In this document: piece by piece, positions 9,317 to 52,246 of the stretch | How positions within the stretch are numbered: the first letter of the stretch is position 1 | How the letters are laid out: every line of letters starts with the position of its first letter | Assembly (NCBI RefSeq): GCF_003330725.1 | Contig: NZ_CP030840.1 | Coordinates: forward strand, 4,836,001-4,900,000 | DNA from: Acidisarcina polymorpha | GTDB taxonomy: Bacteria > Acidobacteriota > Terriglobia > Terriglobales > Acidobacteriaceae | Reading direction: 5' to 3' | Length of the DNA stretch: 64,000 nt | Made by a program: the position numbers and the translations under genes | The notes under the pieces: generated by a model | Databases searched by the model: none | What the model saw: the letters and a program-made list of their open reading frames with translations, nothing else | Told to the model about the DNA's origin: nothing

Positions 9317-9327
9317 GTGACCCCTTT

Positions 9328-14763: not shown

Positions 14764-14822
14764 TTATCTCCTCCAGAGAGCCCTGCCTCTTGCGTAGCTA
14801 ATATTGGCTGCGTGGGTGCTTG

Positions 14823-31328: not shown

Positions 31329-32590
31329 ATGCCGGACACGATTTCGTTCTTACATCTTTCGGATATTCACTTTACCAAAGGCACCAGCAATGTCAGTTCC
31401 TTTGATATTGATCGGATTGTTCGGAACGAACTTGTCCGTGACGCCGCTAATTTACTTCCGGCGGTTCAGCCCCTGACAGGAATCATCGTTTCCGGTGACA
31501 TAGCATTTGCTGGTAAACCGGACGAATTCAAGACCGGAATTGATTGGCTAGCAGAACTCTCTGCCAAGCTCAACTGCGATCCAAGTTTGGTCTGGTGCGT
31601 ACCTGGCAACCATGATGTTGACCGCAATGTGATACGTGAACACACAGGTATCACTCCCATCCAAAACGAAATCCGCGTATCAACGGACCTTAACGCGTGC
31701 ATGAAGAGGCACCTGACAGCGGCGATGCTGCAGTGCTTTTCGAGCCTCTCAGAGCCTATAACGACAGCATTGGTCAAAGATTTGAATGTGCATCAGTTCC
31801 AGCAAAGCCGTGGTGGGAATTCGATCTTGGCCTCAATGACGGATCAACACTTAGGCTACGAGGTCTAAACAGCTCAATCATCTCCGGCGACAACGACAAA
31901 GAACACACCTGCCTGCTTTGTCTTGGCCCCGCTCAGTACGAGTACATGCGCGAAGATGACGTGACCTACCTCACGATTTGCCATCATCCTCCTGATTGGC
32001 TCGTGGATGGAGCAGAAGCCCGGACAGCACTGAAGGCCTATTCGAAGGTCATTCTCACAGGGCATAAGCATTTCCACGAAGAAGAGGAAGTGAATGGGAC
32101 TCTCTGGCTCAGTTCTGGGGCCGTACATCCTTCCCGAGCTGAACAAAAGTGGGAACCAACGTACTACTACCTCAGGTTTGAAGTAGAGGACACTGATTGT
32201 CAAAGGCTCCTAATAGTGGATGTCTTTCGGCGCATCTGGAACGACTCTTCGAAGATGTTCGTGCGTCCCGCGGGTCAGCAAGAAGATTTCAAGACATACA
32301 AGCTGCCTCTTTCGAAGAGGCAAAAAACAGGCGAGAGTGTAACACTAGTCACCCAACCTTCTACTGGAGGTGTCGAAGTGTCATTGAACAGGAAAAAACT
32401 TCTCTATGCGTTCGTGGCATTGCCGTACCACACCCGGCTTTCGATCATGGAACAACTGAAACTGATTGACGAAGACAATCGCGGACTTCCGGATAACGAA
32501 CGGTTCGCATCCTGCTTTGATCGAGCAGAGAAACAAAACCGCCTGAACGATGTGTGGGACTTGGTTGAGTCAAGGCAAGCGACTTCTTAG
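31329..32590 (+). pseudogene. Calcineurin-like metallophosphoesterase, split by a frameshift
   Basis: Two overlapping frames together encode one metallophosphoesterase of about 420 residues. The first (31329-31868) carries LHLSDIHF, VSGDIAFAG and the VPGNHDVDR motif. The second (open from 31694 to 32590) carries TICHHPPDW and LTGHKHFHEEEE. All five metal-site motifs are present only if the frame shifts by -1 between about 31710 and 31725, where KRHL in the first frame leads into DSGDAAVLFEPLRAYN in the second. No classical slippery heptamer is seen, so a one-base deletion or sequencing error is likelier than programmed shifting. It is the first gene of the GTPase operon, ending 9 bases before the next start. 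Confidence 0.8.
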
Positions 32591-32599
32591 GAGAATATT

Positions 32600-33655
32600 G
32601 TGCACGAATTATTTCCGAATTGGATGAACAAGGTATCACCGCAGATTGATGAGGCGCGTTTGACGGCGCGTTGGAACGCTGCAAAGAAGGTCGCCGACGA
32701 AGCGAATGAGGCGGGCATACTGGCACTTGCCGAACAAGCACTCAATCTCAGTTCCGCTGCAACTGAGACGGTACGCGTTTCAGCACGCTTGGCGGACACT
32801 ACCTATGTCTCAGAAGATGATGCACTTGAGCTGTCCGCTCTGGCAGCGGGAGCTCTTGCGTCACTCATGACCACCAATTCCCGCAAGGGGGAGACAGCAG
32901 CGGCATCAGTTCGAGCGGGCCTGTTCGGCCGTTCGAGTAGTAAAGGGATGACCCAAGATCTCCGCCGTTTGGCGGACGCCGCAATCCAGCGAATCTCCGA
33001 AGAGGACCGTAAAGACGCAGTGGTACCAACTTGGGCAGGAAAGGCGATCACTGATGTTACCGGCAAGCAAGCGGTTGTCGTCGATTTGTCCACAACCCAC
33101 ACGTTGGTTCTTGATGCCGCGCAAGCAACGATCAATTCGGTGAAGGCACAATTCCAGAAGTTCACCGACGCTTTGTCTAAAATGAGCTCCCTGCAAAAAG
33201 AATCATCCGACCTCGCATATCTGCTTGTGTCGCAATACTCCTTCGTCGCAGGGAAAGTCATTTCATCTATGAGCGCAAGTGATGCTGCTTTTTGTTCGAG
33301 TAGAGACCTTTTCAACGCAACACAGTTCACATCGACGCTTCCCGCATTCGAGGCCTCGCTCGCGATGCTCTTGAGGCCAGCGAAGTTGTCTAAGAAGGCC
33401 GTTACGCTATCGCAGGCTGTTAGTGGTCTCGACGGGGAAATCCGCCAGGCAATCATAAGTAATTCGGTTGTCTTTCCTAAAATTCTCCCGCTTCATTTTG
33501 CCGTCCTCAAGTGCCAAGAAGTCTCAGGAGGGGAGACGTGGGCTCCGGCCTTCGAGACAGTTACAGGTTTGAAGAGTAGCCTCTCGCAGACCCCTGAAGA
33601 GCTTGCCGCTCAGTTTTATCTCGAATCGATATTGATCTGGCATCTGGAAGGCTAA
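32600..33655 (+). CDS. GTPase-associated helical protein (GASH-like)
   Basis: A 351-residue, largely alpha-helical, alanine-rich cytoplasmic protein starting at a GTG. The first 70 residues (HELFPNWMNKVSPQIDEARL; RWNAAKKVADEANEAGILAL) and later helical repeats match, by recognition, the GTPase-associated system helical domain described with predicted bacterial conflict systems. It has no catalytic motif. Position second in the operon, 9 bases after the phosphoesterase and 5 bases before a GTPase, indicates tight co-expression. It may be a scaffold or regulator of the GTPases. The family name is from memory and should be confirmed by a profile search. Confidence 0.6.
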   Translation: MHELFPNWMNKVSPQIDEARLTARWNAAKKVADEANEAGILALAEQALNLSSAATETVRVSARLADTTYVSEDDALELSALAAGALASLMTTNSRKGETAAASVRAGLFGRSSSKGMTQDLRRLADAAIQRISEEDRKDAVVPTWAGKAITDVTGKQAVVVDLSTTHTLVLDAAQATINSVKAQFQKFTDALSKMSSLQKESSDLAYLLVSQYSFVAGKVISSMSASDAAFCSSRDLFNATQFTSTLPAFEASLAMLLRPAKLSKKAVTLSQAVSGLDGEIRQAIISNSVVFPKILPLHFAVLKCQEVSGGETWAPAFETVTGLKSSLSQTPEELAAQFYLESILIWHLEG

Positions 33656-33660
33656 GAACG

Positions 33661-34536
33661 ATGATTAAGTTGCATCCGGGATTGGCACTGAAGGCGGATG
33701 ATGTCTATCAGATTTGCCGTGGAGGCGACACGAAAATTGTCGCGCTCATGGGGACGATCGGTTGCGGGAAAACGACGTTGATAGCGGGGATTTTTCAAGC
33801 TTTTCTCGAGGGGAGTGTTGCCGGATATAGCTTCCGAAGGTCAGACACGCTGGTGGCTTTCGAAGAGAAGTGCTTTAACTCGCGCACATCTTCGGAGAGC
33901 TCAGTCGCTTCAATGCCCCGGACTTCGGGGCAGGTAGGTGCGGAGTTCTATCATTTGGAGGTCGTTCGAGATGCGGACCGATCCATCCACCGAATCTTGC
34001 TTCTGGATTTATCGGGTGAGGTATACGAAGGGGCGATGCACGTCGAAGACGATGCGGCCAAGCTCACAGTTCTTCGCGACGTAAGCCTCCTTGTTCAATT
34101 GATCGACGGCAAGAAGTTGTCCTCGGGCGCGACACGCGAAAAGGTCTATTCGGATGCAAAAGGGCTTCTGCGTCGTCTGTTCGAAGTGAACTCGATCACC
34201 GCTCAGACGCCGTTGCAGGTGGTTGTCTCAAAAGTAGATCAACTCGTGGGCGATGACACTTCGCAGCGAGCGCTTGAAGCTGTGCGCGCGACGGTCGCCA
34301 GCCGGTTTGCCAAAGAGAGTCAAAGACCACATTTTGAGATTCGTGAAATAGCAGCCAGCCCGGCGCAGGAGACGACGGTCCCGATGAGATTTGGTGTGAA
34401 TGGCTTACTGAGCTCATGGCTTGCAGACGAGGAATCTGCCATGCCGGCTTTGCCCAAGCTCAAAGTGTCTGGTGACCGATTGCAGCATCGGCTCGGCGAA
34501 GTCTGGATGCCAGAAAGGTTCGAAGCAAGTGAGTAA
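33661..34536 (+). CDS. P-loop GTPase of the double-GTPase conflict system (first)
   Basis: A 291-residue small GTPase-like protein. Walker A is GTIGCGKTT at residues 31-39, the G3-type motif is LLLDLSGEVYEG with DLSGE at 116-120, and the G4 base-recognition motif is VVSKVDQ at 190-193. The DLSGE form (rather than DxxGQ) is shared with the next protein. The layout matches the DO-GTPase families described as paired GTPases in predicted conflict systems. It overlaps the next GTPase gene by 8 bases. It probably senses an invader or a partner and switches an effector; that is inference. Confidence 0.75.
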   Translation: MIKLHPGLALKADDVYQICRGGDTKIVALMGTIGCGKTTLIAGIFQAFLEGSVAGYSFRRSDTLVAFEEKCFNSRTSSESSVASMPRTSGQVGAEFYHLEVVRDADRSIHRILLLDLSGEVYEGAMHVEDDAAKLTVLRDVSLLVQLIDGKKLSSGATREKVYSDAKGLLRRLFEVNSITAQTPLQVVVSKVDQLVGDDTSQRALEAVRATVASRFAKESQRPHFEIREIAASPAQETTVPMRFGVNGLLSSWLADEESAMPALPKLKVSGDRLQHRLGEVWMPERFEASE

Positions 34537-35413
34537 TTCCGCGGAAAAGGGCATACTGCTGGTGGGTCTACCAAAGGCTGGCAAGACCACATTCGTTGCT
34601 GCGTTGTGGCATGTCCTCAACTCCGAGGAGATCACGGATTCTCTGCGTCTGAGCGTTCTAGGCGGTGACGACACATATTTAAATCAGATTCGGGACGAGT
34701 GGCTGAACTACCAAGAAGTCATTCGGACTACACAGCAGAATGAAGCGATTCCGACGATGCATCTTGTCGACAAAAGCGGCCAGCTGAAGTGTGCGTTGAG
34801 CGTGCCAGATCTCTCAGGTGAGACCTATGTTAGCCAGTGGTTGGACCGGGAGTGGTCCGACAAATTCGCGGCTGCAGCAAGGGGCGCATCGGGAATACTT
34901 GTTTTTATTCATCCAAATCAGCCCTTGGAAGCTCCAGAGATTACAACAACGATGCGGATGCTTGCGCCGTTCCCGGAAGAAGAATCTTCCTCCGAAGACC
35001 CTGTGGATGAAGCAGTCTGGGACCCAGAAAGGGCAGCGGGAATCGTTCAGTTGGTTGAGGTGTTGCAGTTCTTGCAAAAAAATCTTCACCGACCCCTGAG
35101 GATCGCAGTGATGGTATCTGCTTGGGATCTCATTAAGGCGCGTTACGCGACGCCGCAGGAGTTCATTCGCACACGCACTCCGCTCTTGGAGCAATACATG
35201 CGGACGAACGGCGACACGCTGAATTTTACGGTCTTTGGGGTCAGCGCCCTGGGCGGAGACCTAGAAAGCAAAACGGACACTGATCGCTTGCAAAATGAGA
35301 CAGCATGCGCATCAGATCGCATCGAAGTCGTTCCCTCCACGGCGGAAAACCTCCATGACATAACTCGTCCATTGCGGTGGGCTTTATCGTGGCCAGAAGG
35401 CGAGTCCGCATGA
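34529..35413 (+). CDS. P-loop GTPase of the double-GTPase conflict system (second)
   Basis: A 294-residue GTPase-like protein translated from GTG 34529, within the end of the first GTPase gene; the frame is open further upstream but that part overlaps the neighbour. Walker A is GLPKAGKTT at residues 13-21, DLSGE recurs at 94-98, and VSAWD at 196-200 replaces the usual NKxD base-recognition motif. The alteration may relax guanine specificity. It shares little sequence with the first GTPase beyond the motifs, so the two are likely distinct partners, not a tandem duplication. Its stop overlaps the next gene by ATGA. Confidence 0.75.
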   Translation: MSNSAEKGILLVGLPKAGKTTFVAALWHVLNSEEITDSLRLSVLGGDDTYLNQIRDEWLNYQEVIRTTQQNEAIPTMHLVDKSGQLKCALSVPDLSGETYVSQWLDREWSDKFAAAARGASGILVFIHPNQPLEAPEITTTMRMLAPFPEEESSSEDPVDEAVWDPERAAGIVQLVEVLQFLQKNLHRPLRIAVMVSAWDLIKARYATPQEFIRTRTPLLEQYMRTNGDTLNFTVFGVSALGGDLESKTDTDRLQNETACASDRIEVVPSTAENLHDITRPLRWALSWPEGESA

Positions 35414-37395
35414 GGCTCGAACAGGCACTTTTCGGATACAAAGGTGGCCATCGGCGCATCTCTAGTTCGATTTCGTTTCAACCCGGAGATGAACGATTTC
35501 TCGTACGTATGACGGACCTGTCGGGCTCGCGGTCAGTGCCCGGATTCGAAAATTACGTGAGTGGGTATGCGCTTCCATCGAAGTCTGGATATGTGTTTGC
35601 AAAGACCTGGAATGCACCTGAGTGTGAGCGCCCGGGCTGTGTCTGGACGCACGTGATGTTGGTCGGGTCGGGAGATTGGCGTGGACTCACTCCTGCCGGT
35701 ATATCCGAATCGTTCCATCGCCCCGCTGCTGAGAAGCTTGGATTCGATTCATATTCCAACTGTTTGGTAGTTGGAACTGAGCCTGGCGACGAGCGCTTAC
35801 CGAAACTAGAAATGAGAGAAAACATCGTCCGTGCGCTTTACTCCGATGATCGTCCCATCATCATCTCTGAGTCCGAGGAGCGAACACAACTCAGTTTGTT
35901 TTTGATGAGTTTGGTGATGCAGCGTCCACTCGCGACGAGGCTGTCTCTCTCCTTCTGCACAGGAGCTCTGAGCTATCTAGAAGCTAACTCTGTCCCAATC
36001 CGCATTCAAGCCATGCCATCGCGAATTGCGCGGATGGTCAGGGACGAAGTTCATCTTCTTCATGGTGAGGAAGAGCCTCTTGTATCAGAGTGGGCAAAGT
36101 GGCTCGTGAAGGACCTAAAACGAAAAGACATCGTTCTCGAGGAGCTTTTCGCTCCCTTTGATAACACAAGCCAGACGTATGAAGAGCCGGAGTCGGTTGC
36201 GATCATTCGCAAGCTCTCCGAAGCCCGCGTTTTATTTCAATGCGCTCACGATGGGAGTCAGACAGCCGAAGATGTGTTGCGTGGAGTGACCACGCTTTTT
36301 CCTGATGGCGAGACACAAGTCCCGTTTAAAAACGCTCTTGTTGGGGAGCTTGCGAAGACCTCATCTCAGAGAAATTCTCTGGTTAGAGTTCTGTTTGATT
36401 CGGAGGAGATTGCTTTTGCACTACAGGAATCAAAATCTTCACTGCTTTCGGTCGCTTCGCTTCTTGCGAAGCAGGACCCAACGCTGGCTCTGAACCTATT
36501 GAATGATGTGCTCTTTCGGCCTTACAAGAATAAGGTCCAACAAGACTTGGTCCACTTTCTGCTATCCGAGATCCAACTCTTAGCGGCTGAGCCGACGCGC
36601 CCATTAGAGACGCAGGTGCTATTTGCCATTGCTCGTGAACAGAAGGAGCTGATCTCGCGCCCAGGGTTCTGGCTATTACAGCGGTCTTTTGACGAATCGA
36701 TTGAGCTCGCGGAAACTCTGGCCGAAGACTTAGACGACGAGCTTGTCCTGGCAGGCTTACTCGCTGCTGGTAGATTCGATCTGCTTGTTCGGATACTCAG
36801 AATGAGAGGCGCGCAAGGTGCGAGAGAGGCACTTAGTTTAGCGAGGAGCTTAAAACTCAACGATTCGAGTGAGTACCAGAAAGTGCTAGCTTTGCGTGGC
36901 GAAGTGTTAGATTTCGCGCAAACACTTGCTTGGGGGGAAGCATATTCCATGCGACCTTTGAACGAAGCGCAGCTATTCATTCTTGCGAGTTCAAGTGTTG
37001 AGCCGCACCGCCTTGTTGCGCTGGCGCCCGATATCTCGATCTGGTTAAATGCGTTGAGCGCGCTCCCATCAGAACCGCAAAGGATGTTTGCAATCGCCGT
37101 ATTCCTGGCCTGCGGAGAAGAATTTGCAGAAGGGTGGAGACTGCTGAGAAAGTCCTTTGATGTTATTCATCAATCGACAGGTTCGAAAACGATTCCATCT
37201 GAGTGGTGGGGGCTCGTCAAGTCGCGGCTCCCCACGCTAGCTGTTTGGGAAAAGTGGGATAAGTGTGAGCGATTACGCAGGGGGGCCGTGGACTCAATCC
37301 TTCGAGCAGGATTACCTGAGTCGATGGTTGAACAGGTTTCCCAAGATCGAACCCTGCAGCAGCGGCTCAGAGAGATCTATAGGAACCGCCGATAG
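35410..37395 (+). CDS. GAP1-type protein (GTPase-associated protein 1)
   Basis: A 661-residue cytoplasmic protein starting at ATG 35410 (ATGA overlap). The N-terminus is distinctive: LEQALFGYKGGHRRISSSIS followed by FLVRMTDLSGSRSVPGFENY and a GYVFAKTWNAPECERPGCVW segment. This pattern is that of the GAP1 N-terminal domain, found only with DO-GTPases in predicted conflict systems. The middle and C-terminal parts (about 200-661) are helical and leucine-rich, with acidic patches, and resemble the GAP1 M and C regions. It has no nuclease or protease motif; it may transmit the GTPase signal. Family assignment from memory. Confidence 0.72.
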   Translation: MRLEQALFGYKGGHRRISSSISFQPGDERFLVRMTDLSGSRSVPGFENYVSGYALPSKSGYVFAKTWNAPECERPGCVWTHVMLVGSGDWRGLTPAGISESFHRPAAEKLGFDSYSNCLVVGTEPGDERLPKLEMRENIVRALYSDDRPIIISESEERTQLSLFLMSLVMQRPLATRLSLSFCTGALSYLEANSVPIRIQAMPSRIARMVRDEVHLLHGEEEPLVSEWAKWLVKDLKRKDIVLEELFAPFDNTSQTYEEPESVAIIRKLSEARVLFQCAHDGSQTAEDVLRGVTTLFPDGETQVPFKNALVGELAKTSSQRNSLVRVLFDSEEIAFALQESKSSLLSVASLLAKQDPTLALNLLNDVLFRPYKNKVQQDLVHFLLSEIQLLAAEPTRPLETQVLFAIAREQKELISRPGFWLLQRSFDESIELAETLAEDLDDELVLAGLLAAGRFDLLVRILRMRGAQGAREALSLARSLKLNDSSEYQKVLALRGEVLDFAQTLAWGEAYSMRPLNEAQLFILASSSVEPHRLVALAPDISIWLNALSALPSEPQRMFAIAVFLACGEEFAEGWRLLRKSFDVIHQSTGSKTIPSEWWGLVKSRLPTLAVWEKWDKCERLRRGAVDSILRAGLPESMVEQVSQDRTLQQRLREIYRNRR

Positions 37396-37801: not shown

Positions 37802-40800
37802 ATGACGCCTGAAGCGCCCCTGGTCCTTGACCTCCTTACATATATCGAACAAGTCGAAAAGCTCAAAGCAAAACCCGCCTTTACGGTGCCGACCGATTTC
37901 TTCCTCGCCAATCAGCACGACCTAAAGGGTCTGCCTGAATTGCAGTTCAATGTCCAAGACGCGGGCGGTGACATCTGGCTCCGCATTCCGCGTCTCCATG
38001 AAATCGCGCCGCCGCCGCCCGATGCAACGCTTGTTGCATGGGTCACTCTGCCCAAAGTGCCGACGAAGCTGCCTGACCTCAAAACCCAGATTGAAATTCA
38101 CAATGGCAAGCAATTCGTCCGCACGGAGCGCTTGGAAGAGCGCCCCGAAGTCTCTGAGTTGTTCGCTTGGTATGTCGAAAACCAGTGGAAGCCCTGGGCC
38201 GCTGCGGAAGCGCCGAGGCGTCAGACCATCAAGCGCTACAACGAGATGTTTTCGTTGCAGCAGACGATTTCGACCGAAGGCTCTGAGACGCAACTGGAAC
38301 TGGTTTGGGGTCTGGGTTATGCAGTCTGGAAGAAGGAGGGCGCGGGGCCCGCGCTCAAGCACCCGCTGATAACCCAGTCTTGCGAAATCACCCTGAACGA
38401 AAGCAATTTCGATCTGGAGATTCGCCCGCGCGAGGTTGACCCGCGCATTGAACTAGATACCTACACGGCAATGGAATTGCCGGGAGTGCGCCAACTTGAA
38501 ATTTTCTGGAAGTCCTCCTTAGAGAACGGCGCGAACCGGCCCAATCCATTCGAGGCGTCCACCTATGAAGGCGCACTCAAGGCCGCTGTCGGTCATCTCG
38601 ACCCCACGGGTGAATACGTCGTCCTCACCGACGATCCGACGCCGCCGGCAGCCGGCGACAAACTCAAAATTACCAATAGCTGGGTTGTCTTCGCACGGCG
38701 GCGCTCAAGCGGCATTTTTCTGGAAGATGTCGCCCGTCTTAAAAAGAGCGTCGAAAAGGCCACCAAGCTTCCGGCTGTCGTCCGAGATTTTGTGGAGCGT
38801 GGTGATCACGAAATCAAAGAACCGGTGATGCAAAGCTACCGGGGTCTGTCATCCAGCGAAGGCGACCATACCGCGTCTGAGCTGTATTTCCCGATGGCTT
38901 ATAACGATGAGCAAGTCTCCATCGTGCAGAAATTGCAATACGGCAATGGCGTTGTCGTGCAAGGGCCACCGGGCACGGGCAAAACGCACACAATCGCGAA
39001 CATCATTTCGCACTACCTCGCGCAAGGGTTGCGCGTCCTGGTCACGTCCAAGGGCGAGAGCGCCTTGAACGAAGTCATCGGGAAACTGCCGGAGCGCATT
39101 CGCCCGCTTTGCGTCGGCTTGCTATCGAACGAGAGTGACGGGATGCGGAAGTTTGAGCATTCCATCCAGACGATTGCGGCGAACATTTCCGGCATGAACG
39201 CGGCGCGGGCACACGCGGAAATCACCGCCCTGCAAGACAAGCTCAATCAACTTCACGGCAAAATCTCGAATGTCGACCGGCAGGTTGCGCACTACGCATC
39301 GCAGCACATGAGGAACTACACCTTCCAAGGCCGGGAAGTGACGCCGGAAGAAATGGCAAAGCTGGTGTTGGCCCAAGCCGACGATCACCAGTGGATGGAT
39401 GACGATCTCCCGGAAGACGATGTGGCGATACTCTTTAGCGAGGCGGACGTAAATGCCTTGCGGCAGGCGCGTATTAAAGTCGGCAAAGATATTGTTTATC
39501 TCAACTGCTCGGTTCCGCCCGTGGACGCCTTTCCGGGCTGGGCAGTTTTGAGCGAACTGCACCGCGATCTTTCGCGGTCGAAATCAATCGAAGCCGATAT
39601 TGCTTTGGGCTCGGTCATACCGCTCAAGGATGCAACATTCGAGACATTCGAGGCCGGTAAGGGCTTGATGGAGTTTCTTGACCGCCGTCAGGCGCTGCAA
39701 AAGAAACTCGCGCAGTCGAGCACTCCCATTCTCGAAGCTATCTCAACGCATCTCGGCAATATGCGGGCCGATGATCTGCTGCTGTCGGCCCTACTGCAAT
39801 CCTGCGCCGATGTCCGCGCTTTGGAGACGCGGCGTAAGGATTTGCTCACCAAGGCGGTCTCAGTGCCGCAGGATGCCGAAGCGAACCTGGACTTTTTGGA
39901 GGCAGTTCAACGGTTGCGCACCGGCAAGAGTGCCTTTGCGTTGCCGTTTGGCAAGGGTGAAGCCCGCAAGCTCGTGGCGGCGGTGACTGTCGTCGGCTCT
40001 GCGCCGTCCACATCCGCCGATTGGGAGTTGGTCGAAGAAGCGCTGCGATGGCGGGCGGATGCGAAGAAGACAATCGCCAAGTGGAATTCGGTAGCCGCTG
40101 AATTCGGGATTGAAGCCCAGACGGGTGCACTCGATCTTGCCTGCCGGTCGATGACACAACTGCAAGAGTTCGTCCAAGACACACACGCGCTTGCGTTTGA
40201 CTACGACGCCAAGCTCCGGGATGAAACGGAAAAGGTCTTTGACACCCGGTCGGCGGAAACGCTGCTTGAAAAAGGCGAGGGCACTGTTGTTGCGATCCGC
40301 GAATCCCTTCATGCGCATGTCGATAAGGGTCGTTTGTCCTATGCCATGAATCGGTTGGGCGAGGTAGTGGGCAAGCTCACCGGCCGCAACGGCCAAGTCG
40401 TCGATGCGTTGCGGTCATTCCTGACGGAAGTCATTGGCAAGCAAGAGCAGGAAGATTCCACACTGCACAACCTCTGGCTTTCCCTGCAGACCGAATTGAC
40501 CCGGGTGAATAGCTTGCGGCCCGGGCTTGATGACATTCTGCGCGTATCGGCCCTGATTGAAGCTGGCGGCGCAAAGAAGTGGGCGCATCGTATTCGCACC
40601 GAACCTGCCGAGAGTGACAACGATCCGGTCGTTTTGGCGACGTGGCGCGAGGCTTGGAATTGGCGTTGCGCCGTCATGTTCCTAGAGAAGATCGACGGTC
40701 ACGCGAAGCTGCGCGAACTGTTCGGCCATCGCAAGATAATGACGACGATTTTGGCGAGAACCTATCAAGACCTGGTCGCCGAAAAGACTTGGCTCGGGGT

Positions 40801-42274
40801 CTACAACAATTCGCCAACGGCGATTCAGCAAGCTTTGCAAGCCTATTTGAATTCCATTCAGGCGATGGGAGCGGGGACAGGTGTCCGTGCCGTTCGCCAT
40901 CGCCGCAGTGCCCGCGAGGCAATGAAGCTGGCTTATAAGGCGGTACCTTGCTGGGTGTTGCCGGAATGGCGCATTTCGGAAACACTGCCGCCCGACCTTG
41001 GCTTGTTTGACCTGGTTATCATTGACGAAGCCTCTCAGTCGGATATCTGGGCTTTGCCCGCGCTATTGCGCGGTGAAAAGCTCCTGGTCGTTGGCGACCA
41101 TAAGCAAGTCTCGCCGTCTGCCATCGGCGTCCCGGAAGAGAAGATCAAAGAGCTTCGCGACCGCTTCCTTACCAATCAGCCCTTCGGTTCTGAGATGACA
41201 CCGGACAAGTCGATATATGACTTGGCGCGCGTTGTCTTCGCGGGTAGCTCGGTCATGCTGCGCGAACACTTCCGCTGCGTCCCGGCCATCATCGAATACT
41301 CGAACCGCGAATTCTATGAAGGCGACATCAAGCCCCTCCGTTTGCCAAAGGCAAACGAACGTCTCGACCCGCCTTTGATCGACGTGTTTGTCAAAGGTGG
41401 ATATCGCCAGACGGATGTGAACCAGGCGGAAGCCAAGGCCATCGTCGATGAAATCGACTTAATCTTGGCCGACCCTGACCTTGCTGGTCGGTCTATCGGT
41501 GTTGTCACGCTGCTTGGCACCGCGCAGGCCGCGCATATTCAAGCGCTCGTTGGCGACCGTATCTCGCCGGTCGATGTCATTAGCCGTCAAATCGCGGTCG
41601 GGCCGCCGCCTGTCTTCCAAGGGCGTGAGCGGGACATCATGCTTGTCTCAATGGTCTTAGGTCCGAATGAGCGCGGCGCGGCCAATCGCGCCGATATGAA
41701 GCAGCGCTACAACGTAGCGATGTCTAGGGCACGTGACCGCATGTATCTGTTCCGCTCCGTCGAAAGCAACGCTTTCGGGGAAGACACCTTAAACGGTCGT
41801 CTAATCCGGCATTTCAAAGAACCGTTCCGGATTGACGGGCGAAGCTCCCAGCTTCTCCGCGATCGCTGCGAGTCCGGCTTTGAGTTCGATATGTTCGACG
41901 AACTAGTGAAACGCGGCTACCGCGTCGAGCCGCAGGTTCGCTGCGGTGCTTTTAAGATTGATTTTGTTGTCGAAGGGCGGGAGGGTCGTCGCTTGGCTAT
42001 CGAGTGCGACGGCGACCGTTTCCACGGGCCCGGCCAATGGTCGGACGACATGGCCCGTCAACGCGTCTTGGAGCGGGCGGGCTGGACATTCTGGCGTTGC
42101 TTCGCCTCAAGCTGGGCGCGTCGCCGAGATGAAGTGGTCGGCGATCTTTTGCAAACCCTCGACTCCTTGGGCATTGAACCGTTGGGCTCCGAAGCGGTCG
42201 ATAACACTGTGTGGGTTCACTACAAGGAAGTCGACCCGTTCCAAATTGAGGAGCCACTTGCAGAAACGCTATGA
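37802..42274 (+). CDS. SF1 (Upf1-like) helicase with C-terminal Vsr/DUF559-type nuclease domain
   Basis: A 1490-residue protein. The start is the ATG at 37802 with GGGGG upstream; the frame is open 26 codons further. An N-terminal region of about 350 residues has no recognised domain. The helicase core has Walker A GPPGTGKTHTI at about 387, a long helical insertion (about 470-1040), motif II IIDEASQSD at about 1073 with VVGDHKQVSPSA, REHFRCVPAII, QGRERDIMLVSMV and motif VI NVAMSRARDRMY at about 1306. Residues about 1365-1450 form a PD-(D/E)XK nuclease: CGAFKIDFVVEG, LAIECDGDRFHG, and RVLERAGWTFWRCF. Single-protein helicase-Vsr architectures have known antiphage members. It should unwind and cut foreign nucleic acid. 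Confidence 0.85.
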   Translation: MTPEAPLVLDLLTYIEQVEKLKAKPAFTVPTDFFLANQHDLKGLPELQFNVQDAGGDIWLRIPRLHEIAPPPPDATLVAWVTLPKVPTKLPDLKTQIEIHNGKQFVRTERLEERPEVSELFAWYVENQWKPWAAAEAPRRQTIKRYNEMFSLQQTISTEGSETQLELVWGLGYAVWKKEGAGPALKHPLITQSCEITLNESNFDLEIRPREVDPRIELDTYTAMELPGVRQLEIFWKSSLENGANRPNPFEASTYEGALKAAVGHLDPTGEYVVLTDDPTPPAAGDKLKITNSWVVFARRRSSGIFLEDVARLKKSVEKATKLPAVVRDFVERGDHEIKEPVMQSYRGLSSSEGDHTASELYFPMAYNDEQVSIVQKLQYGNGVVVQGPPGTGKTHTIANIISHYLAQGLRVLVTSKGESALNEVIGKLPERIRPLCVGLLSNESDGMRKFEHSIQTIAANISGMNAARAHAEITALQDKLNQLHGKISNVDRQVAHYASQHMRNYTFQGREVTPEEMAKLVLAQADDHQWMDDDLPEDDVAILFSEADVNALRQARIKVGKDIVYLNCSVPPVDAFPGWAVLSELHRDLSRSKSIEADIALGSVIPLKDATFETFEAGKGLMEFLDRRQALQKKLAQSSTPILEAISTHLGNMRADDLLLSALLQSCADVRALETRRKDLLTKAVSVPQDAEANLDFLEAVQRLRTGKSAFALPFGKGEARKLVAAVTVVGSAPSTSADWELVEEALRWRADAKKTIAKWNSVAAEFGIEAQTGALDLACRSMTQLQEFVQDTHALAFDYDAKLRDETEKVFDTRSAETLLEKGEGTVVAIRESLHAHVDKGRLSYAMNRLGEVVGKLTGRNGQVVDALRSFLTEVIGKQEQEDSTLHNLWLSLQTELTRVNSLRPGLDDILRVSALIEAGGAKKWAHRIRTEPAESDNDPVVLATWREAWNWRCAVMFLEKIDGHAKLRELFGHRKIMTTILARTYQDLVAEKTWLGVYNNSPTAIQQALQAYLNSIQAMGAGTGVRAVRHRRSAREAMKLAYKAVPCWVLPEWRISETLPPDLGLFDLVIIDEASQSDIWALPALLRGEKLLVVGDHKQVSPSAIGVPEEKIKELRDRFLTNQPFGSEMTPDKSIYDLARVVFAGSSVMLREHFRCVPAIIEYSNREFYEGDIKPLRLPKANERLDPPLIDVFVKGGYRQTDVNQAEAKAIVDEIDLILADPDLAGRSIGVVTLLGTAQAAHIQALVGDRISPVDVISRQIAVGPPPVFQGRERDIMLVSMVLGPNERGAANRADMKQRYNVAMSRARDRMYLFRSVESNAFGEDTLNGRLIRHFKEPFRIDGRSSQLLRDRCESGFEFDMFDELVKRGYRVEPQVRCGAFKIDFVVEGREGRRLAIECDGDRFHGPGQWSDDMARQRVLERAGWTFWRCFASSWARRRDEVVGDLLQTLDSLGIEPLGSEAVDNTVWVHYKEVDPFQIEEPLAETL

Positions 42275-42756
42275 GCCGTCCTCTGATTCAAAAACGCATT
42301 GATGAACTCGAAGCGATGTTCGACGCCGAAAAAGGCGATCCCGACGCATTGCGGCTGTTAGAAAACGAACTGGCCTTCCGCTCTGTGCCCCGCGCGACAA
42401 CGCTCTTAAATAAGGTGAAGCGCGTCCTCGCCGGTGGCACGGTTGCTGAAGCAAAGCAAGATGAATTATTCGCGCACAGACCACCGGTCGCCGTGCAAGT
42501 TCCTCTGATGCCAATCAAACCAACATCCTCGCCGAAGCCGGTCATTTCCATGACCATTGACGAAGCGCTCAAGGTTTTGAAGGTCACCGCCAGCACCGGT
42601 TGGGAAGCGGTCGAGCAAAGCCGCCGGGACGCAGTTGAACGTGCCCGACCGGACAGGCTGACGTCACTCAGTGAAACAAAGCGCCGTACGTTGCGAGAAG
42701 ACGCCCGAAGCGCAAACGCGGCATACCTCGTAATGCTGCAAGCCAGAAAAGCCTAA
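42271..42756 (+). CDS. Protein with a degenerate J-domain-like C-terminus, coupled to the helicase-nuclease
   Basis: A 161-residue protein. The C-terminal 70 residues have J-domain layout: DEALKVLKVTASTGWEAVE, a second helix SRRDAVERA, then RPD at 126-128 where active J-domains have HPD, and a closing NAAYLVMLQARK like the fourth J helix. The N-terminal part has a helix (RIDELEAMFDAEKGDPDAL) and a Pro-rich linker. Loss of the histidine should prevent stimulation of Hsp70, so it may be an adaptor or inhibitor. It overlaps the helicase-nuclease stop by ATGA, which argues that they act together, for example as a control subunit. Confidence 0.65.
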   Translation: MSRPLIQKRIDELEAMFDAEKGDPDALRLLENELAFRSVPRATTLLNKVKRVLAGGTVAEAKQDELFAHRPPVAVQVPLMPIKPTSSPKPVISMTIDEALKVLKVTASTGWEAVEQSRRDAVERARPDRLTSLSETKRRTLREDARSANAAYLVMLQARKA

Positions 42757-42769: not shown

Positions 42770-42831
42770 CCGCGAGCCTCGCGGCCAAGAACATGGGAGC
42801 AAAGGACGTGCTACCGAAAACGTCTCCCATC
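42770..42831. terminator. Hairpins between convergent genes
   Basis: CCGCGA-GCC-TCGCGG (42770-42784) and a second imperfect hairpin from GGGAG to CTCCC up to about 42830 lie between the stop at 42756 (plus strand) and the relaxase stop at 42830 (minus strand). Such paired hairpins between convergent genes can stop transcription from both sides. No clear T-run is present. Confidence 0.45.
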
Positions 42832-45529
42832 AGATGCCAAAGCCAGTTCCCACTTCGATCGCCGATGTCTTGGATACTGCATTGGTGAGATTAGTGGCAA
42901 GCTTCGACGCATCATTGGTGAAAATTTGAGCATCCTGAGCTGCGCGCGAGACGGACACGTAGGCAAAGCGGGTATTGATGAGCTCTGGGTGGCTACGGGT
43001 GTCGATATTCACCAAAACTCGGTCGGCTGTCAGCCCTTGTGAGCTGTGTGATGTGACGGCATAGCCGTGGTCGATGTGTCGCATTTGGTTGGCGTCGAAG
43101 CTGATGGATTTACCGTTGTCCATCTTCACCGAAAGTTGATTGCCTTTGTCGATATGCTGCACCGTGCCAAGGTCTCGGTTGGCAACGCCTAACTCTTTGG
43201 AAGGCGCAGTAAAGCCCAGTCGATCGCCTACAGCGAACTCCCGCTCCAACTCGCGGTAGACGTTTACCCCATAGAGCCGTGCGGGGTTGTAGGTGACGGT
43301 GGCTCCATCTTCTTTCAGGACGGTCAGCAGGTTGTTTTTGGATTGGGTAGCGATCACCTTTGTATAGCTTTGTCGCCCGATTCCGATGTCTTGGCTGCCA
43401 CGCGGATAGTACAGAACGTCATCTACGGCGTAGCGAGCAGCCCAGGTTCTATCCGCACCGGTCATGTCCGAACGAGGGGCGAGTACGCGCATGGCATAAC
43501 CCTCTGAAGCGACTGCTCCGAGGGCTTGCAATTCGGAACGCACCGCCTGATTGATCTGACGGCGCGAGGCATTATCGGGGGAAACAACGATGGTGTTTTC
43601 CGGGCTGGCGGCGTAGCTCCGCGCAATCGCCGCGATGCGCTGTTGCGGGTCGGCAATCTCGGTAACTCGGCCCTGCTGTTCCAGGAGCGCCACCCCCTCG
43701 GCGATTTCGCCACGCGACAAATGCTCGACCGCCCTCAACAACTCAGGGGCCTCTCGTTGACGCACGATCTGGTCAAGCTGGGCCGTCTTCATTCCGGCCT
43801 TCACCAACTGCTCGAAAGGCTTGCCGGCTTCGACGCCCTGATGCTGTCGTGTATCTCCGATGAGCAACACGCGGTCGCCGGATTCCAGCTTGGTGAGGAA
43901 GTCGCGCACTTGCTTGGTGCTGGCGAGACTGGATTCATCGACCATGTACAGATGGCGGTCGGCGGTAGCCTGGCGGGCGCGAACTAGGAAGCCCTGTAAG
44001 GTATCGGCGGAGATCCCGGCCTCGCGGAGTTGGTTCGCGGCGCGGGAAGTCGGGGCGAAGCCTTCGACGACATAGCCGCGCGTTTCGGCCGCTTCGCGGA
44101 CGGATTTTAAGAGGGTCGTTTTCCCGACACCGGCCCTTCCCTCCAGCCCTTGTACAACGTCGCGCGAGGTCAAAATCTCTTCAGCAGCAGCCCGCTGTCC
44201 GGCGTTCAAATGCTGCTGCTTTTCTGTGTGGGCGACAGCGGCCTGGATAGACATGATCTGTTCGGCGCGCCCGTGTCCTTGCTGCATCTGGCGCAAAATT
44301 TCTTTCTCGGTGCGTATCGTCTCTGCCGTCGTGAACTGCCGCCCGGTCTCATGTTTTTCTCCGGGCACAAGCTGGAACTCGCCGGAGGCAATGCGCGTCT
44401 CGAAGTTAGCGCGTACTTCGGTATAGGTGACTTCGCTCATCCCGCGGCGCAAAGCGTCGCGGAAGAGGTCGCGCTCATCGGTGACGGCTTCGCGCTCGAA
44501 GCTGCGCTCGCGGGCAAAGGTGACCGCTTCGCGGGCGACTTTCTGCACGGTTTCGTGAGTGCGTTCGGCGGTGTGAATGCGCGCGCGCTCCTGGGCCTCA
44601 GCCACGACATGATCGGGCTGGTTACCGTACTCGGCGGCAAGGTGCCGATGGGCGGCAAGCACCTCGGCGGGTGTCTGCATAAGTTTTTCGCTGCGGCTGG
44701 CGTGTGCCGCGATATCCGCCGCTTCATAGCCGTGAAGGCCGTGTTTTTCCATGCGCTCACGTATCTGATCGCGGCGTGCGCTAGAGGCGTCGAGATACTC
44801 CAAGGTGTATCCCTTGATCTCAGGTGCTCCGCTTCTACCGGCTTCGATTTCATAGCCAAGATTCCGAAGTCGATACGTCAACTCTGATTGATATACGGCA
44901 GTGGCGAACTGCTGAGAATCGAAGTAGCCGTGCTCTTGGAGCGCTCGGGTTTGCCCGTTCTCGCGCTGAGTGACATTGAAGATGACAGCGTGGGTGTGGA
45001 GCTGCGGCGCGGCATAGCCGTCAACGGGACGGGCGGTGTCGTGCTCGAACTTGGCAACGACGAACTGCCCGGTGGTTTCGGCTGGGTGGTTTCCGCCAAG
45101 CCGCGCCTGGGTATAGCGTTCCAACTCCGTCAACGCGATGGTGACGGCCTCGGAGTGCGCTGTTCGTATCCGTTCATCGCCGCCTACCAGGGCGGTCAGC
45201 GACACCGACTTGGGAGGCGAAAACGTAGCATCCCAACCTGCGCGATGTTGTACGGAGTTGACGGTCTTTCCATCAGCGTTCGCGTACTCAAAGGACTGCC
45301 GGTGCATGACAAGCTGCTCGGCAGTGTACGGATGTTGCCCTTCGGATAGACGTTGAAACTCTTCCGCGCCTACCGCGCCGGACAGGCCAAACTTCTCCGC
45401 AAGTTGTCCTTGCCACTGGCCCTGCACCTGCTCTCTCTGACTCCAATAGTTCTGGTCAGGCGAGGTGAATTCGCGCTTGTGGTAGTCCTGTAATTTAGAG
45501 GCCGAAAGCGCCTTGGAGATTTGCAGCAT
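42830..45529 (-). CDS. MobF/TrwC-family conjugative relaxase-helicase
   Basis: An 899-residue relaxase that nicks oriT and unwinds DNA for transfer. The N-terminal relaxase domain (about 1-290) shows catalytic tyrosines near residues 16 and 28 (LQDYHKREF, DQNYWSQRE), a signature AGWDATFSPPKSVSLTAL and the metal-binding histidines in APQLHTHAVIFN near residue 176. The helicase part has Walker A LEGRAGVGKTTLLK at about 463, LYMVDESSLASTKQ, GDTRQHQGVEAGKPF and the late HGYAVTSHSSQGL motif. It is the last gene of the transfer operon, 3 bases after the coupling protein gene. Length is typical of the family. Confidence 0.95.
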   Translation of the reverse strand: MLQISKALSASKLQDYHKREFTSPDQNYWSQREQVQGQWQGQLAEKFGLSGAVGAEEFQRLSEGQHPYTAEQLVMHRQSFEYANADGKTVNSVQHRAGWDATFSPPKSVSLTALVGGDERIRTAHSEAVTIALTELERYTQARLGGNHPAETTGQFVVAKFEHDTARPVDGYAAPQLHTHAVIFNVTQRENGQTRALQEHGYFDSQQFATAVYQSELTYRLRNLGYEIEAGRSGAPEIKGYTLEYLDASSARRDQIRERMEKHGLHGYEAADIAAHASRSEKLMQTPAEVLAAHRHLAAEYGNQPDHVVAEAQERARIHTAERTHETVQKVAREAVTFARERSFEREAVTDERDLFRDALRRGMSEVTYTEVRANFETRIASGEFQLVPGEKHETGRQFTTAETIRTEKEILRQMQQGHGRAEQIMSIQAAVAHTEKQQHLNAGQRAAAEEILTSRDVVQGLEGRAGVGKTTLLKSVREAAETRGYVVEGFAPTSRAANQLREAGISADTLQGFLVRARQATADRHLYMVDESSLASTKQVRDFLTKLESGDRVLLIGDTRQHQGVEAGKPFEQLVKAGMKTAQLDQIVRQREAPELLRAVEHLSRGEIAEGVALLEQQGRVTEIADPQQRIAAIARSYAASPENTIVVSPDNASRRQINQAVRSELQALGAVASEGYAMRVLAPRSDMTGADRTWAARYAVDDVLYYPRGSQDIGIGRQSYTKVIATQSKNNLLTVLKEDGATVTYNPARLYGVNVYRELEREFAVGDRLGFTAPSKELGVANRDLGTVQHIDKGNQLSVKMDNGKSISFDANQMRHIDHGYAVTSHSSQGLTADRVLVNIDTRSHPELINTRFAYVSVSRAAQDAQIFTNDASKLATNLTNAVSKTSAIEVGTGFGI

Positions 45530-45532
45530 GGC

Positions 45533-47449
45533 CTAGTCTCCGAGGGAGAATCCGGCCTGTACGGATTCTGCGGCTTCTTCGATCGCATCGGTTTGGGACG
45601 GCTTCTTCGTGAGCGTCTTCGGGTCGAAGGTAAGATCGTCGTCGTCCAATGGACGCGGCACGAACGCCGGCTGGGTTGCGGGGATGTCGTGATAGGCAAA
45701 TGAGAATCTGGCCACCGTGTTTCCCAGCTTCAGGAATGCGTGCCTGTCGGGGAGCCCGGAAATTTCCGAGTCCAGTACCAAAGGCTCGACCTGGCGCTCC
45801 ACGCTGAAGTTGTTGCCAGCCCGCAGGCCGGTGGAGTGCGTCTCCCGCAGCCGCTCAATCTCGACCTTGCCGATGGCGTTCGACACCCATTCGGCAGCCT
45901 TGGGCTCCGTGATTTTCAGGAATATCTTGGTCGCTGGCTGCGACAGCATCACCTCGGCCAGATGCCCGTAGATCATCTCAAGCTGGGCCTTACCTTGAAA
46001 GCCAAGGATCAGGGGGTTCTTTGCCTTTCTGTTCTCGGTGATCGCAGTGTGCAGCTGCGGGAGACGCTGCAAACTGGCCAACTCGTCCAGCACGAACCAG
46101 ACCGGATGCTGGCTCTCTTTGGGCTCGTTCAGGAGACGAAGCACAAGCAGGTCGATCCATAGACTATGCAGGGGACGGAGCGCCTCCCGCTCGCTCGGTT
46201 TGGACGTAATGAATATCCATCCCTTGCGATGCTCCGACCATTCGGTCGCGGTCCAATGGCTTGTTGCTTTCTCTTTCCGTGGGAGCATTCGCAAGCTGTC
46301 GGCGATTAGGCCAAGGGAAGCCAGGACGCCGTTGCGCTGCTGCTGCGCACCCTTCGCAATCATCATGGCCATCTCGGTATTCTGCACCCGCCGGTCGATT
46401 TCTTCGGGGTTCGCCATCCACTCCACCAACTCCTGCGGCGTTGGGCCAAAGGTCAGAAGATGTGCGAAGATTTTCTGCGGTGTCTCGGTGAAAAACTCGC
46501 CTTTCTTGTCCGTGGTCGGTTGATATAGCGACGCGGCTATGGCCCTGGCTTCGGCGCGGCGGCGCAGCTCTTCGGATGGTCCCCAGTAGGGGCAGCGCGC
46601 GTCGAGCGGATTCAAAATAATGTCGCCACGGTCGGCATCGTAAAACCGCTGCACGAACTCGCAAGCCGGGTCATAGACGATGGCAGAATGGCCGCGTTCC
46701 TTGATCTGTGCGAGAAGCTGCATGACCAGCCGGGACTTTCCCGCGCCGGTATCGCCCATGATTTCGATGTGCTGCCCTTCGGCGCGTAGGGGGATGCGCA
46801 TGAGCTCTTTGGACTCGGTAGTTTTGAACCCGATGCCATCGCCCTTGACGACCTTATTGAAGCCGTTTGGAGAGACCAGGACGGGGCCTTTTAGCAGTCG
46901 TCCATACTTCATCTCTTTGAGCCGTCGAACGTCTTTGCGGACGGCGAATGGGAGTTGGAGAAGAAAGACGGCAAGCCCTGACCACAGCGGTATGCCGAAG
47001 ATGCCTAAGACAGAAGCACCGTCATAAACGAAGCGGCGAAGGTAGTCATGAAGAGGGCGGTTCATGTAGGCAACCTTCGGTCCCCGATAGAGAAAAACGA
47101 CGCCGGAGGCATGGGCCGCTGGGGAGAGCGCCAAGGGTATCGGCTTGCCGATTAGCTGCGGCGTAGAACCTGGTTGCACATCGGCTTCCGCGACAGGCCG
47201 GGTGTGGCGCTGGCGGTCTGCCACCGTAACAAGCTGGTACTCGCTGCGCTGGCGCATGGTGCCAACGAAACCCGTTTCGGCATAGCAGGAGAGGTAATAG
47301 CGTTGCAGCGGAGTCATGACAAAAGCGAGGTGGAGGTAAACGCAGACGACGGTCACCATGAGCGCAACAAACACGGCTCCGAAGCTGTAGACGGGATAGT
47401 GCGGCGGACGAACGATGGTTTCTTTGCGGCCCCATTGTGTGTTGGTCAT
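45533..47449 (-). CDS. Type IV coupling protein (TraD/TrwB/VirD4-like)
   Basis: A 638-residue inner-membrane ATPase that connects the relaxosome to the secretion channel. Two membrane segments lie in the first 180 residues (VFVALMVTVVCVYLHLAFVM; FGIPLWSGLAVFLLQLPF). Walker A is MGDTGAGKSRLVMQLL at about 232 and Walker B WFVLDELASLQRLPQL at about 435; LGFQGKAQLEMIYG follows. The TrwB-like pattern fits its pairing with a TrwC-type relaxase. Its start overlaps the MobC-type gene by ATGA. Confidence 0.94.
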   Translation of the reverse strand: MTNTQWGRKETIVRPPHYPVYSFGAVFVALMVTVVCVYLHLAFVMTPLQRYYLSCYAETGFVGTMRQRSEYQLVTVADRQRHTRPVAEADVQPGSTPQLIGKPIPLALSPAAHASGVVFLYRGPKVAYMNRPLHDYLRRFVYDGASVLGIFGIPLWSGLAVFLLQLPFAVRKDVRRLKEMKYGRLLKGPVLVSPNGFNKVVKGDGIGFKTTESKELMRIPLRAEGQHIEIMGDTGAGKSRLVMQLLAQIKERGHSAIVYDPACEFVQRFYDADRGDIILNPLDARCPYWGPSEELRRRAEARAIAASLYQPTTDKKGEFFTETPQKIFAHLLTFGPTPQELVEWMANPEEIDRRVQNTEMAMMIAKGAQQQRNGVLASLGLIADSLRMLPRKEKATSHWTATEWSEHRKGWIFITSKPSEREALRPLHSLWIDLLVLRLLNEPKESQHPVWFVLDELASLQRLPQLHTAITENRKAKNPLILGFQGKAQLEMIYGHLAEVMLSQPATKIFLKITEPKAAEWVSNAIGKVEIERLRETHSTGLRAGNNFSVERQVEPLVLDSEISGLPDRHAFLKLGNTVARFSFAYHDIPATQPAFVPRPLDDDDLTFDPKTLTKKPSQTDAIEEAAESVQAGFSLGD

Positions 47450-47838
47450 GGCTGTTCTGTTGTCCCTTCCGCATAGCTGGCGAGCATGTCTGCAGCCGCT
47501 TTGCGCTTATTGGTTTTCACGTACCGGAGCATTTCTTTGAACTGCTCCGGCGTCATCTTTTCGCCGCGCAGCAACGGCTCAAGGGTGTTGATGAGCAGGA
47601 GACGTAAGGCTTGCACTTCGGCAAACAACGCCGCCCCATCGCCGTGTTGCTGTGCGTTCGCGGCATCCAACAAAACCTCCCGCGCCCATTCGCGGAGGTT
47701 CTTTCCGCAGCTTGCGGCAACCCGCAATAATGCTCGTTCTTCAGTGCGGGTAAACCGCGTGGCAATGCTCTGGGTGCGGGTTTCCCGTCCCTTGAGCCGC
47801 TGCAGGCGGCCTTCGATTTCAGAGGTCTGTGAAAGCAT
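47446..47838 (-). CDS. Relaxosome accessory protein (MobC/TrwA-like)
   Basis: A 130-residue basic protein. The core RTQSIATRFTRTEERALLR and KNLREWAREVLLDAA matches the MobC/ribbon-helix-helix accessory proteins that bind oriT and help the relaxase open it. The remaining C-terminal helices include MTPEQFKEMLRYVKTNKRK. It lies directly downstream of the inverted repeats at 47852-48008, its likely binding region, and is coupled to the coupling-protein gene. Confidence 0.8.
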   Translation of the reverse strand: MLSQTSEIEGRLQRLKGRETRTQSIATRFTRTEERALLRVAASCGKNLREWAREVLLDAANAQQHGDGAALFAEVQALRLLLINTLEPLLRGEKMTPEQFKEMLRYVKTNKRKAAADMLASYAEGTTEQP

Positions 47839-47851
47839 CGCTGACCCTTCT

Positions 47852-48008
47852 GAGGCCAGCTTCGGGTGCGGTTCCCAATGGAACCGCCCGAATTTGGCCT
47901 CGGCGGCAAGCCGGCTGTTTTCTGCACGTTTCCCGTTGGAACCAAATTGGTTCCCAACGCAACCCTTTCAGGGATGGATTGTCAACATTCTTCCGGTGCG
48001 CAGCACCG
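47852..48008. other. oriT: Nested inverted repeats: candidate origin of transfer (oriT)
   Basis: The 200-base gap between two transfer genes holds three inverted repeats. The first (47852-47901) pairs GAGGCCA, TTCGG and GCGGTTCC with GGAACCGC, CCGAA and TGGCCTC around a CAAT loop: 20 paired bases with two 2-base internal loops. The second (47934-47959) pairs GGAACCAA with TTGGTTCC around one A and extends to CGTT/AACG across a bulge. The third (47994-48008) is CGGTGC-GCA-GCACCG. GGTTCC/GGAACC recurs four times. Position next to MobC-like, coupling and relaxase genes is as expected for oriT. The nic site is not identified. Confidence 0.7.
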
Positions 48009-48039
48009 TAGTGCCTTTGCCCCGGAATGAAATGGAGGA

Positions 48040-48354
48040 TCAAGCGCCTTTCGCCTGGGTTACGGGAGCTGCAACCGGTGCTGGAAGAGACTTCTGAGCG
48101 ACCGGCTCACATGCCTCGGCAGCGGGAACCTTCCTGATCCGCAACGTCGCAGCGACCTTCCGGGCTTCCGGGGTCTTGAGGAAGTCCTGGAAATCACGGT
48201 CTTTGCTGAAGACATAGGCAAGAGCTTGCTCGACAACATCGTCAGCGCAGGCGCGGATGAAGGCGGCGTACTGATCGACCTGAGTAGCGGTTGTGTCAGT
48301 GAGCCGGATGGATGCGCTGATCTGACGGGTTTGGACGACTTCAAGCAGTGGCAT
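48040..48354 (-). CDS. Small protein of the transfer region, unknown function
   Basis: A 104-residue protein starting at the ATG 48354 after AAAGGAG. The N-terminal half (LLEVVQTRQISASIRLTDTT) has beta-helix character like a ribbon-helix-helix or small DNA-binding protein, followed by ATQVDQYAAFIRACADDVVE and a Pro/Ala-rich tail. It lies between the primase gene (overlapping it by 14 bases) and the oriT candidate. A role in replication or in oriT binding is plausible but not shown. Confidence 0.6.
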   Translation of the reverse strand: MPLLEVVQTRQISASIRLTDTTATQVDQYAAFIRACADDVVEQALAYVFSKDRDFQDFLKTPEARKVAATLRIRKVPAAEACEPVAQKSLPAPVAAPVTQAKGA

Positions 48355-49330: not shown

Positions 49331-49399
49331 GGCGGGTGTCTCACAGGGGTGGAAGCCCGGCGTTTACCGGGCTCCCGAGTTGATGGAAGAAAAAGCGGC

Positions 49400-49795
49400 T
49401 TATGCGGCCGCTTCCTCCGGGTTGTGGTCTGCTGCTTCCTGATCCTCCGGGCTGGCCTTCTCCGCCCGGTCCAGCTTGAGAATCGAGTTCACCCGAATCT
49501 CCCAGATGGTCTTCTTCTGGGCTGGCTTCTTGCCGACCTTCTTGGCCTCGTACTCCCGGCTGCGCAGCTCGCCTTCCACCTGCAGATGAGCGCCCTTCTT
49601 CAACGTGCCGGCGAACTCACTGAGCTTGCTGAAGACAACGCAACGGTGCCACTCGGTGTGCGAGATGTACTGGCCGTCCTTCTTGTAGGAGCTCTTGGTT
49701 GCCAGCGAGAGGGTTGTGAAGCTGCGGTTGTCGTTGGTGCGAACTTCTGCGTCGTTGCCGAGGAAGCCGATGAGGGTGACTTTGTTCGAGTACAT
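49400..49795 (-). CDS. ssb: Single-stranded DNA-binding protein
   Basis: A 131-residue SSB with the OB-fold core: MYSNKVTLIGFLGNDAEVRT, FTTLSLATKSSYK, TEWHRCVVFSKLSEFAG and LKKGAHLQVEGELRSREYE. The ATG at 49795 follows GGAG; an earlier in-frame start would add 15 unconserved residues. The C-terminus is acidic (EDQEAADHNPEEAAA) but lacks the usual DDIPF-like tip used to recruit partner proteins. Plasmid SSBs cover transferred strands. It precedes the primase gene. Confidence 0.92.
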   Translation of the reverse strand: MYSNKVTLIGFLGNDAEVRTNDNRSFTTLSLATKSSYKKDGQYISHTEWHRCVVFSKLSEFAGTLKKGAHLQVEGELRSREYEAKKVGKKPAQKKTIWEIRVNSILKLDRAEKASPEDQEAADHNPEEAAA

Positions 49796-49799
49796 GGTG

Positions 49800-52086: not shown

Positions 52087-52246
52087 GGGGAGCACGATTC
52101 CTTTCGGTGACGGCATGAAAAACAACTGACGCGTAGATGAGGCCGGCAATCAAACAGCCAAGCAAGACTGCCAGGAAGACGAGGAGTATCGGTTTTCCCA
52201 AGCCGAGGCGTCGTATCGAGAGATATTGGAGAAATGTCCAGAGCAT
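52061..52246 (-). CDS. Small single-span membrane protein in the T4SS operon
   Basis: A 61-residue protein with one strong membrane helix (PILLVFLAVLLGCLIAGLIY) flanked by positive residues. It lies between VirB6 and VirB8 and overlaps the VirB8 start by 26 bases, so it is translated with them. Such small proteins often stabilise the inner-membrane complex or act in entry exclusion. No homologue recognised. Confidence 0.65.
   Translation of the reverse strand: MLWTFLQYLSIRRLGLGKPILLVFLAVLLGCLIAGLIYASVVFHAVTERNRAPHVQRHSTH

Follow-up and report, generated by a model that had tools for sequence, protein, structure and literature searches.

A pair of overlapping genes in the window, the whole 64,000-nucleotide stretch of the Acidisarcina polymorpha genome analysed here, more likely than not constitutes a horizontally mobile, two-gene defence module. 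The larger gene encodes an SF1 helicase with a nuclease at its C-terminus that has the appearance of a weapon of bacteria against phages, and would be the effector. The smaller one encodes a protein with an N-terminal domain and a J-like C-terminal domain, and would be a dedicated docking adaptor. The motor and nuclease are of a known kind. A search of the open literature and the libraries found no J-like partner described for such helicases, and as far as these sources go the partner and its shared N-terminal domain are undescribed. The features of the two genes are listed in Table 1.

Table 1. Features of the helicase-nuclease gene and its small partner (window coordinates).
Feature	Position	Strand	Basis
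SF1 (AAA_11/AAA_12, UPF1-like) helicase with C-terminal PD-(D/E)XK nuclease, 1490 aa	37802..42274	+	ORF, Pfam, motif conservation
Helicase N-terminal domain, residues 1-330, mixed alpha/beta, long helix 115-157	37802..38791	+	AF2 pLDDT 82, pTM 0.70
Walker A, GPPGTGKTHT	38963..38992	+	Conserved in 30 homologues
Motif II / Walker B, LVIIDEASQSD	41012..41044	+	Motif conservation
Motif VI, RYNVAMSRARDRMYLFRS	41705..41758	+	Motif conservation
MTES_1575 / Vsr-like REase domain, D-x(n)-ExDG core	41879..42160	+	PF18741 2.6e-29; core residues conserved
Small partner gene of 161 aa, overlapping the helicase stop by ATGA	42271..42756	+	ORF; homologous loci
N-terminal SF1-helicase-associated domain, residues ~1-55, four helices	42271..42435	+	Alignment, AF2, fusions to SF1 helicases
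Variable linker, residues ~56-90, predicted disordered	42436..42540	+	pLDDT <50 at residues 57-89; weakest constraint
J-like domain, residues ~91-161	42541..42753	+	Profile and predicted fold
HPD tripeptide position, RPD in the window	42646..42654	+	Family alignment

The Helicase-Nuclease

The helicase frame runs from an ATG at 37802 to a stop codon ending at 42274. An alternative TTG at 37778 would give 1498 residues; the ATG was adopted because homologues begin there. Pfam recognizes AAA_11 (6e-19) and AAA_12 (3e-14) in the motor, and the nuclease end matches the MTES_1575 REase family (PF18741) above its cut-off (2.6e-29, residues 1368-1461 of the longer frame), with a weaker match to DUF559 (3e-4). 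SF1 motifs I, II, III, IV and VI are intact and are kept across 30 homologues, in which GPPGTGKT (Walker A), DEAS, VGDxKQ and SRARDR are conserved. The D...ExDG...H core of the nuclease is also conserved across the 30, so that the acidic PD-(D/E)XK core is intact. A preliminary description of this DNA had placed here a 1490-residue helicase with a Vsr-type nuclease end, followed with an ATGA overlap by a 161-residue gene; open reading frames, Pfam and motifs bear out its coordinates and the helicase, and the reading frames bear out the overlap and the downstream gene.

The N-terminal domain of the helicase has no Pfam match and Foldseek returned no significant PDB match, so its assignment to a known fold was rejected. 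Phage-borne copies of the helicase were likewise rejected, since a pattern scan of viral contigs yielded none.

The Small Partner Gene and Its Co-inheritance

The small gene is not a chance reading frame, because homologues lie behind the helicase in other phyla and its dN/dS is low. Overall values of 0.17-0.39 indicate purifying selection, with values down to 0.05 in the N-terminal domain; by part, the N-terminal and J domains are lowest and the linker highest. AF2 predicts two helical domains joined by a disordered linker (pLDDT 76). The pTM is low (0.42), as expected for a linked domain pair. The alignment used for this prediction left out one row from a plasmid collection.

Scanning genome contigs with the helicase gave 24 loci. 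Wherever the helicase was at least 53% identical and the contig continued, the small gene was directly behind it (L031-L039). For L040 the contig ends inside the helicase, and a second contig of the same genome (L120) carries the C-terminal part of the helicase together with the small gene. The pair is also found on a Variovorax plasmid (L055), where the small gene is unannotated. When the N-terminal domain alone was used as a query against 350 genomes of the class to which L041 belongs, a further J-like copy (L130) was recovered directly behind a helicase of 65% identity. The pair is thus present in 13 of 13 clade loci with a visible flank (the window, L031-L039, L120, L055 and L130). An additional J-like copy, L115, sits at a contig end and is outside the 13. 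In one of these loci (L038, Nitrosospira briensis Nsp8) the partner gene, at 14476-15116, is frameshifted and the helicase frame is open.

In a quick tree the helicases with a J-like partner form one clade (support 100) that includes both Acidobacteriota and Pseudomonadota. The partner label requires 1 change on this tree versus 9.6 in shuffles, and helicase and partner identities run parallel (r=0.83, with 0 of 5000 permutations as high). The co-occurrence check proposed in the preliminary description therefore comes out in its favor, the small gene standing beside all close homologues. The coupling has a limit that the description overlooked. Helicase-nucleases of about 40% identity, in which this motor and nuclease are likewise intact, lack the J-like partner and were found with no detected partner, so an adaptor is not essential for the family as a whole. 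The C-terminal extensions of this group were considered as the site of a hidden adaptor domain; inspection by eye recognized none, and the extensions are of several unrelated kinds.

A short ribbon-helix-helix-like gene overlaps or abuts the helicase start in L032, L033, L034, L036, L037, L055 and L056. It was rejected as a third core component since it is absent from the window and from L031. The protein is accessory and probably a regulator.

The N-terminal Domain

The N-terminal domain of about 55 residues follows the pattern RPL..I..LE..F...D...L..LE.EL..R..PRA..LL..V in the alignment and corresponds to no Pfam family. It also heads other proteins. It opens one UvrD-like SF1 helicase (L117), one MkoA-like one (L119) and several MkoC-like ones, of which PADLOC identifies L114, L116 and L118 and similarity identifies L131 and L132. 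Pfam recognized no nuclease domain on the MkoC-like and MkoA-like chains. In L041 and L042 a single gene continues from the domain into a zinc ribbon (PF22747, a sub-threshold match at 1.7e-3) and a membrane helix, and has no J-like domain; it is directly upstream of a helicase-nuclease about 40% identical to that of the window. The full-length profile that retrieved these two loci was built without them.

Since some genomes have the domain as part of a helicase and others encode it next to one, it is, by gene fusion logic, most simply read as a helicase-docking or helicase-guiding domain. The preliminary description was right about the J-like part of the small protein and passed over this domain, which is the stronger lead. 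Matches in histidine kinases (L125, L127) are weak and were set aside as chance coiled-coil matches. A weak match (3e-7) fused to an unknown domain occurs in an Acidobacteriaceae genome (L133, 5019-5717, minus strand) and may be a further variant; a likely NERD-type protein (8138-9760) lies about 2.4 kb away.

The J-like Domain and Its Possible Roles

Several observations agree with the J-domain topology that had been proposed for the small protein. The Pfam DnaJ family PF00226 matches seven of ten members of the small-protein family (best 5.5e-5), a match that does not extend to the window's own protein. Against unrelated genomes the family profile retrieved real DnaJ proteins in 8 of 8 checked matches. 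The top PDB and viral matches in Foldseek are J-domains with probabilities of 0.99-1.0, although E-values of single matches are not significant (0.02-1). AF2 gives the C-terminal domain a helical J fold with helices II and III antiparallel, and the helix-II arginines are conserved in the family. In L064 and L083 a single chain holds both a J-domain and an FtsK gamma DNA-binding domain, an unusual combination.

The H and D of the HPD tripeptide are needed for stimulation of Hsp70. Only 2 of the 14 members (L032 and L037) keep HPD intact. The other 12 have RPD (the window and its closest relative, L031), QPD, HPA, NPE, HPE, SPA, HPS or HPV. With the motif eroded in most members, an Hsp70-stimulating Hsp40 role is unlikely for those; in the two that keep HPD, a link to Hsp70 may remain. 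The chaperone-type action that had been suggested for the partner is thus disfavored. A J-type domain mostly stripped of its chaperone motif suggests a built-in sensor or recruiting arm.

The proposed module would work as follows; its presumed elements, reasoned from sequence, are physical docking, a recognition role for the J-like domain, the DNA substrate and the defence activity. The large protein, as motor and effector, would engage single-stranded or otherwise abnormal DNA (candidate substrates are replication, transfer or damaged DNA intermediates), move along it by the SF1 motor and cleave it by means of the Vsr-type nuclease at the C-terminus. Its partner would be a dedicated adaptor whose N-terminal domain docks on the helicase and whose flexible linker presents the J-like domain. 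Largely without its HPD trigger, that domain would serve not as an Hsp70 co-chaperone but as a binding module, either for a chaperone complex or for J-domain-binding proteins of phages or plasmids, and binding would target or license the nuclease. In related loci the J-like module is replaced by a zinc ribbon and membrane anchor, as if the sensing or tethering module can be swapped.

A sharper form of the adaptor explanation can be offered tentatively. The J-like domain may be an integrated decoy, bound by phage or plasmid proteins that hijack DnaJ, for instance for replication initiation or lysis, and binding would trigger the helicase-nuclease. A fast-evolving domain with an eroded catalytic motif and a conserved fold fits this, as does the swapping of the module in relatives (L041, L042). 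Phages exploit DnaJ, and a defence protein that senses through DnaJ has already been reported (PMC12169576). However, the loss of HPD fits a plain structural role as well. Stated in full, an HPD-eroded J-like decoy or sensor for DnaJ hijackers might steer the helicase-nuclease through an unnamed docking domain that several families of defence-type SF1 helicases share, fused or as a separate gene, and that carries swappable tails, a possibility to be held with reserve.

It is rather doubtful that the small protein is instead an inhibitor or antidote that blocks the helicase-nuclease until it is itself removed on infection, in line with the preliminary suggestion that the partner could hold the nuclease off. 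Such a role would suit a protein that is translationally coupled to a potentially harmful nuclease, is strictly co-inherited with it in the clade and is built flexibly from two domains. There is also a precedent in Hachiman HamAB, in which the helicase holds the nuclease in check until DNA damage (PMC12278908). That system resembles the window pair in its two-gene logic of a helicase and a nuclease with controlled cutting; it differs in that its helicase and nuclease are separate proteins, whereas the window has both in one chain plus a J-like adaptor. Against an inhibitor, relatives that share this motor and nuclease in intact form have no detected partner, and the nuclease is therefore not obviously toxic by itself. 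The N-terminal domain is moreover fused to helicases in which no nuclease domain is recognized, which argues for docking or guiding over nuclease inhibition.

Genomic Setting

The defence role proposed for the pair draws on its genomic context and from the fact that the nearest families are defence models. Wadjet is found near L055 and L050, a type I R-M system near L038 and Lamassu near L034; BREX is directly before L058 and a restriction endonuclease directly before L057. In the window, conjugation genes occupy 42830-52149 on the minus strand and include those for a MobF relaxase, a VirD4-type coupling protein, a VirB11-like ATPase and others. By its position the pair is cargo carried on the margin of an integrative element. 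Relaxase and coupling-protein genes of the same kind flank a related helicase in L043.

The pair could in principle be a repair or mobile-element housekeeping enzyme carried on integrative elements. Its position beside the relaxase and coupling-protein genes, with a similar arrangement in L043, is what such an enzyme would show, but the repeated siting beside Wadjet, BREX, Lamassu and R-M genes, and nearest PADLOC and NCBIfam families that are defence models, make this improbable.

Other neighbors were also observed. SRAP (HMCES/YedK-like) genes are found near the pair in the window (30349-31068) and in L031, where the gene directly follows that of the small protein (15019-15729). Immediately upstream of the pair, at 31329-37395 on the plus strand, is a GAP1-N1 GTPase-centred conflict system of the type described in PMC7159879. 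Pfam identifies its parts as a calcineurin-type phosphoesterase with a GAAD adaptor domain, a GASH protein, DO-GTPase2, DO-GTPase1 and GAP1-N1. The phosphoesterase frame is split into overlapping reading frames (31329-31868 and 31697-32590), which marks it as a pseudogene, a recoding site or the result of an assembly error. The idea that the pair belongs to this system was rejected: no GAP1, DO-GTPase or GASH genes are found beside the homologous helicase loci, so the system is a neighbor and not a component.

Comparison with Known Systems

The nearest named families are PDC-S37 (PADLOC) and ProA (NCBIfam), both large SF1 helicase-nuclease defence proteins with which the window helicase shares, over about 1100 residues, the order of SF1 motor followed by Vsr-type nuclease. 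PDC-S37 matches at 9e-65 (217 bits, positions 298-1340 of 1550). ProA matches at 7e-79, with 265.8 bits against a curated cut-off of 1500. In contrast to the window pair, these families have no J-like partner on record in the searched papers and libraries, and the N-terminal part of the helicase is unmatched. Hhe, the DUF4011 helicase-endonuclease, matches the C-terminal motor and nuclease region with 127-163 bits. Pfam finds no DUF4011 in the window helicase, the match is partial (163 bits against a cut-off of 2000), and the window system has an extra partner gene. A fusion of the window's nuclease family to an SF1 helicase, for which action in the absence of a methylase was proposed, has been described in PMC3710099; in contrast to that system, no HEPN, transglutaminase or wHTH was found in the window, which has the small J-like partner instead.

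The likeness to Mokosh is that some MkoC-like and MkoA-like helicases bear the N-terminal domain of the small partner. There the domain is fused and the chains have no Pfam nuclease domain, whereas MkoC and MkoA match only motor segments of the window helicase, in which no kinase domain is present. The pair is therefore outside Hhe and ProA by their cut-offs, outside Mokosh, and not part of the DO-GTPase/GAP1-N1 system.

A functional parallel is bNACHT25, a DNA-degrading defence system whose phage sensing requires host DnaJ; HPD mutants fail, and both H and D are needed (PMC12169576). Both cases tie a J-domain protein to such a system. In bNACHT25 it is the host's own HPD-dependent protein, whereas the window has a dedicated, linked gene with HPD eroded. 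It is unlikely that the small protein acts as a true J-domain co-chaperone through which DnaK is recruited for loading, folding or remodelling the helicase or its target complexes: the J-like fold, the conserved helix-II arginines, the intact HPD of L032 and L037 and the bNACHT25 case fit that role, but 12 of 14 members, those of the window and L031 among them, have an altered motif.

Significance

For many large defence helicases neither a sensor nor a way of recruitment is known. If the docking/J-like adaptor reading is correct, one small constant domain with interchangeable tails would link several helicase families and provide a common handle on how they are aimed. In a J-like tail without an Hsp70 trigger, bacteria would have a counterpart of decoy sensing, relevant to phages that need DnaJ.
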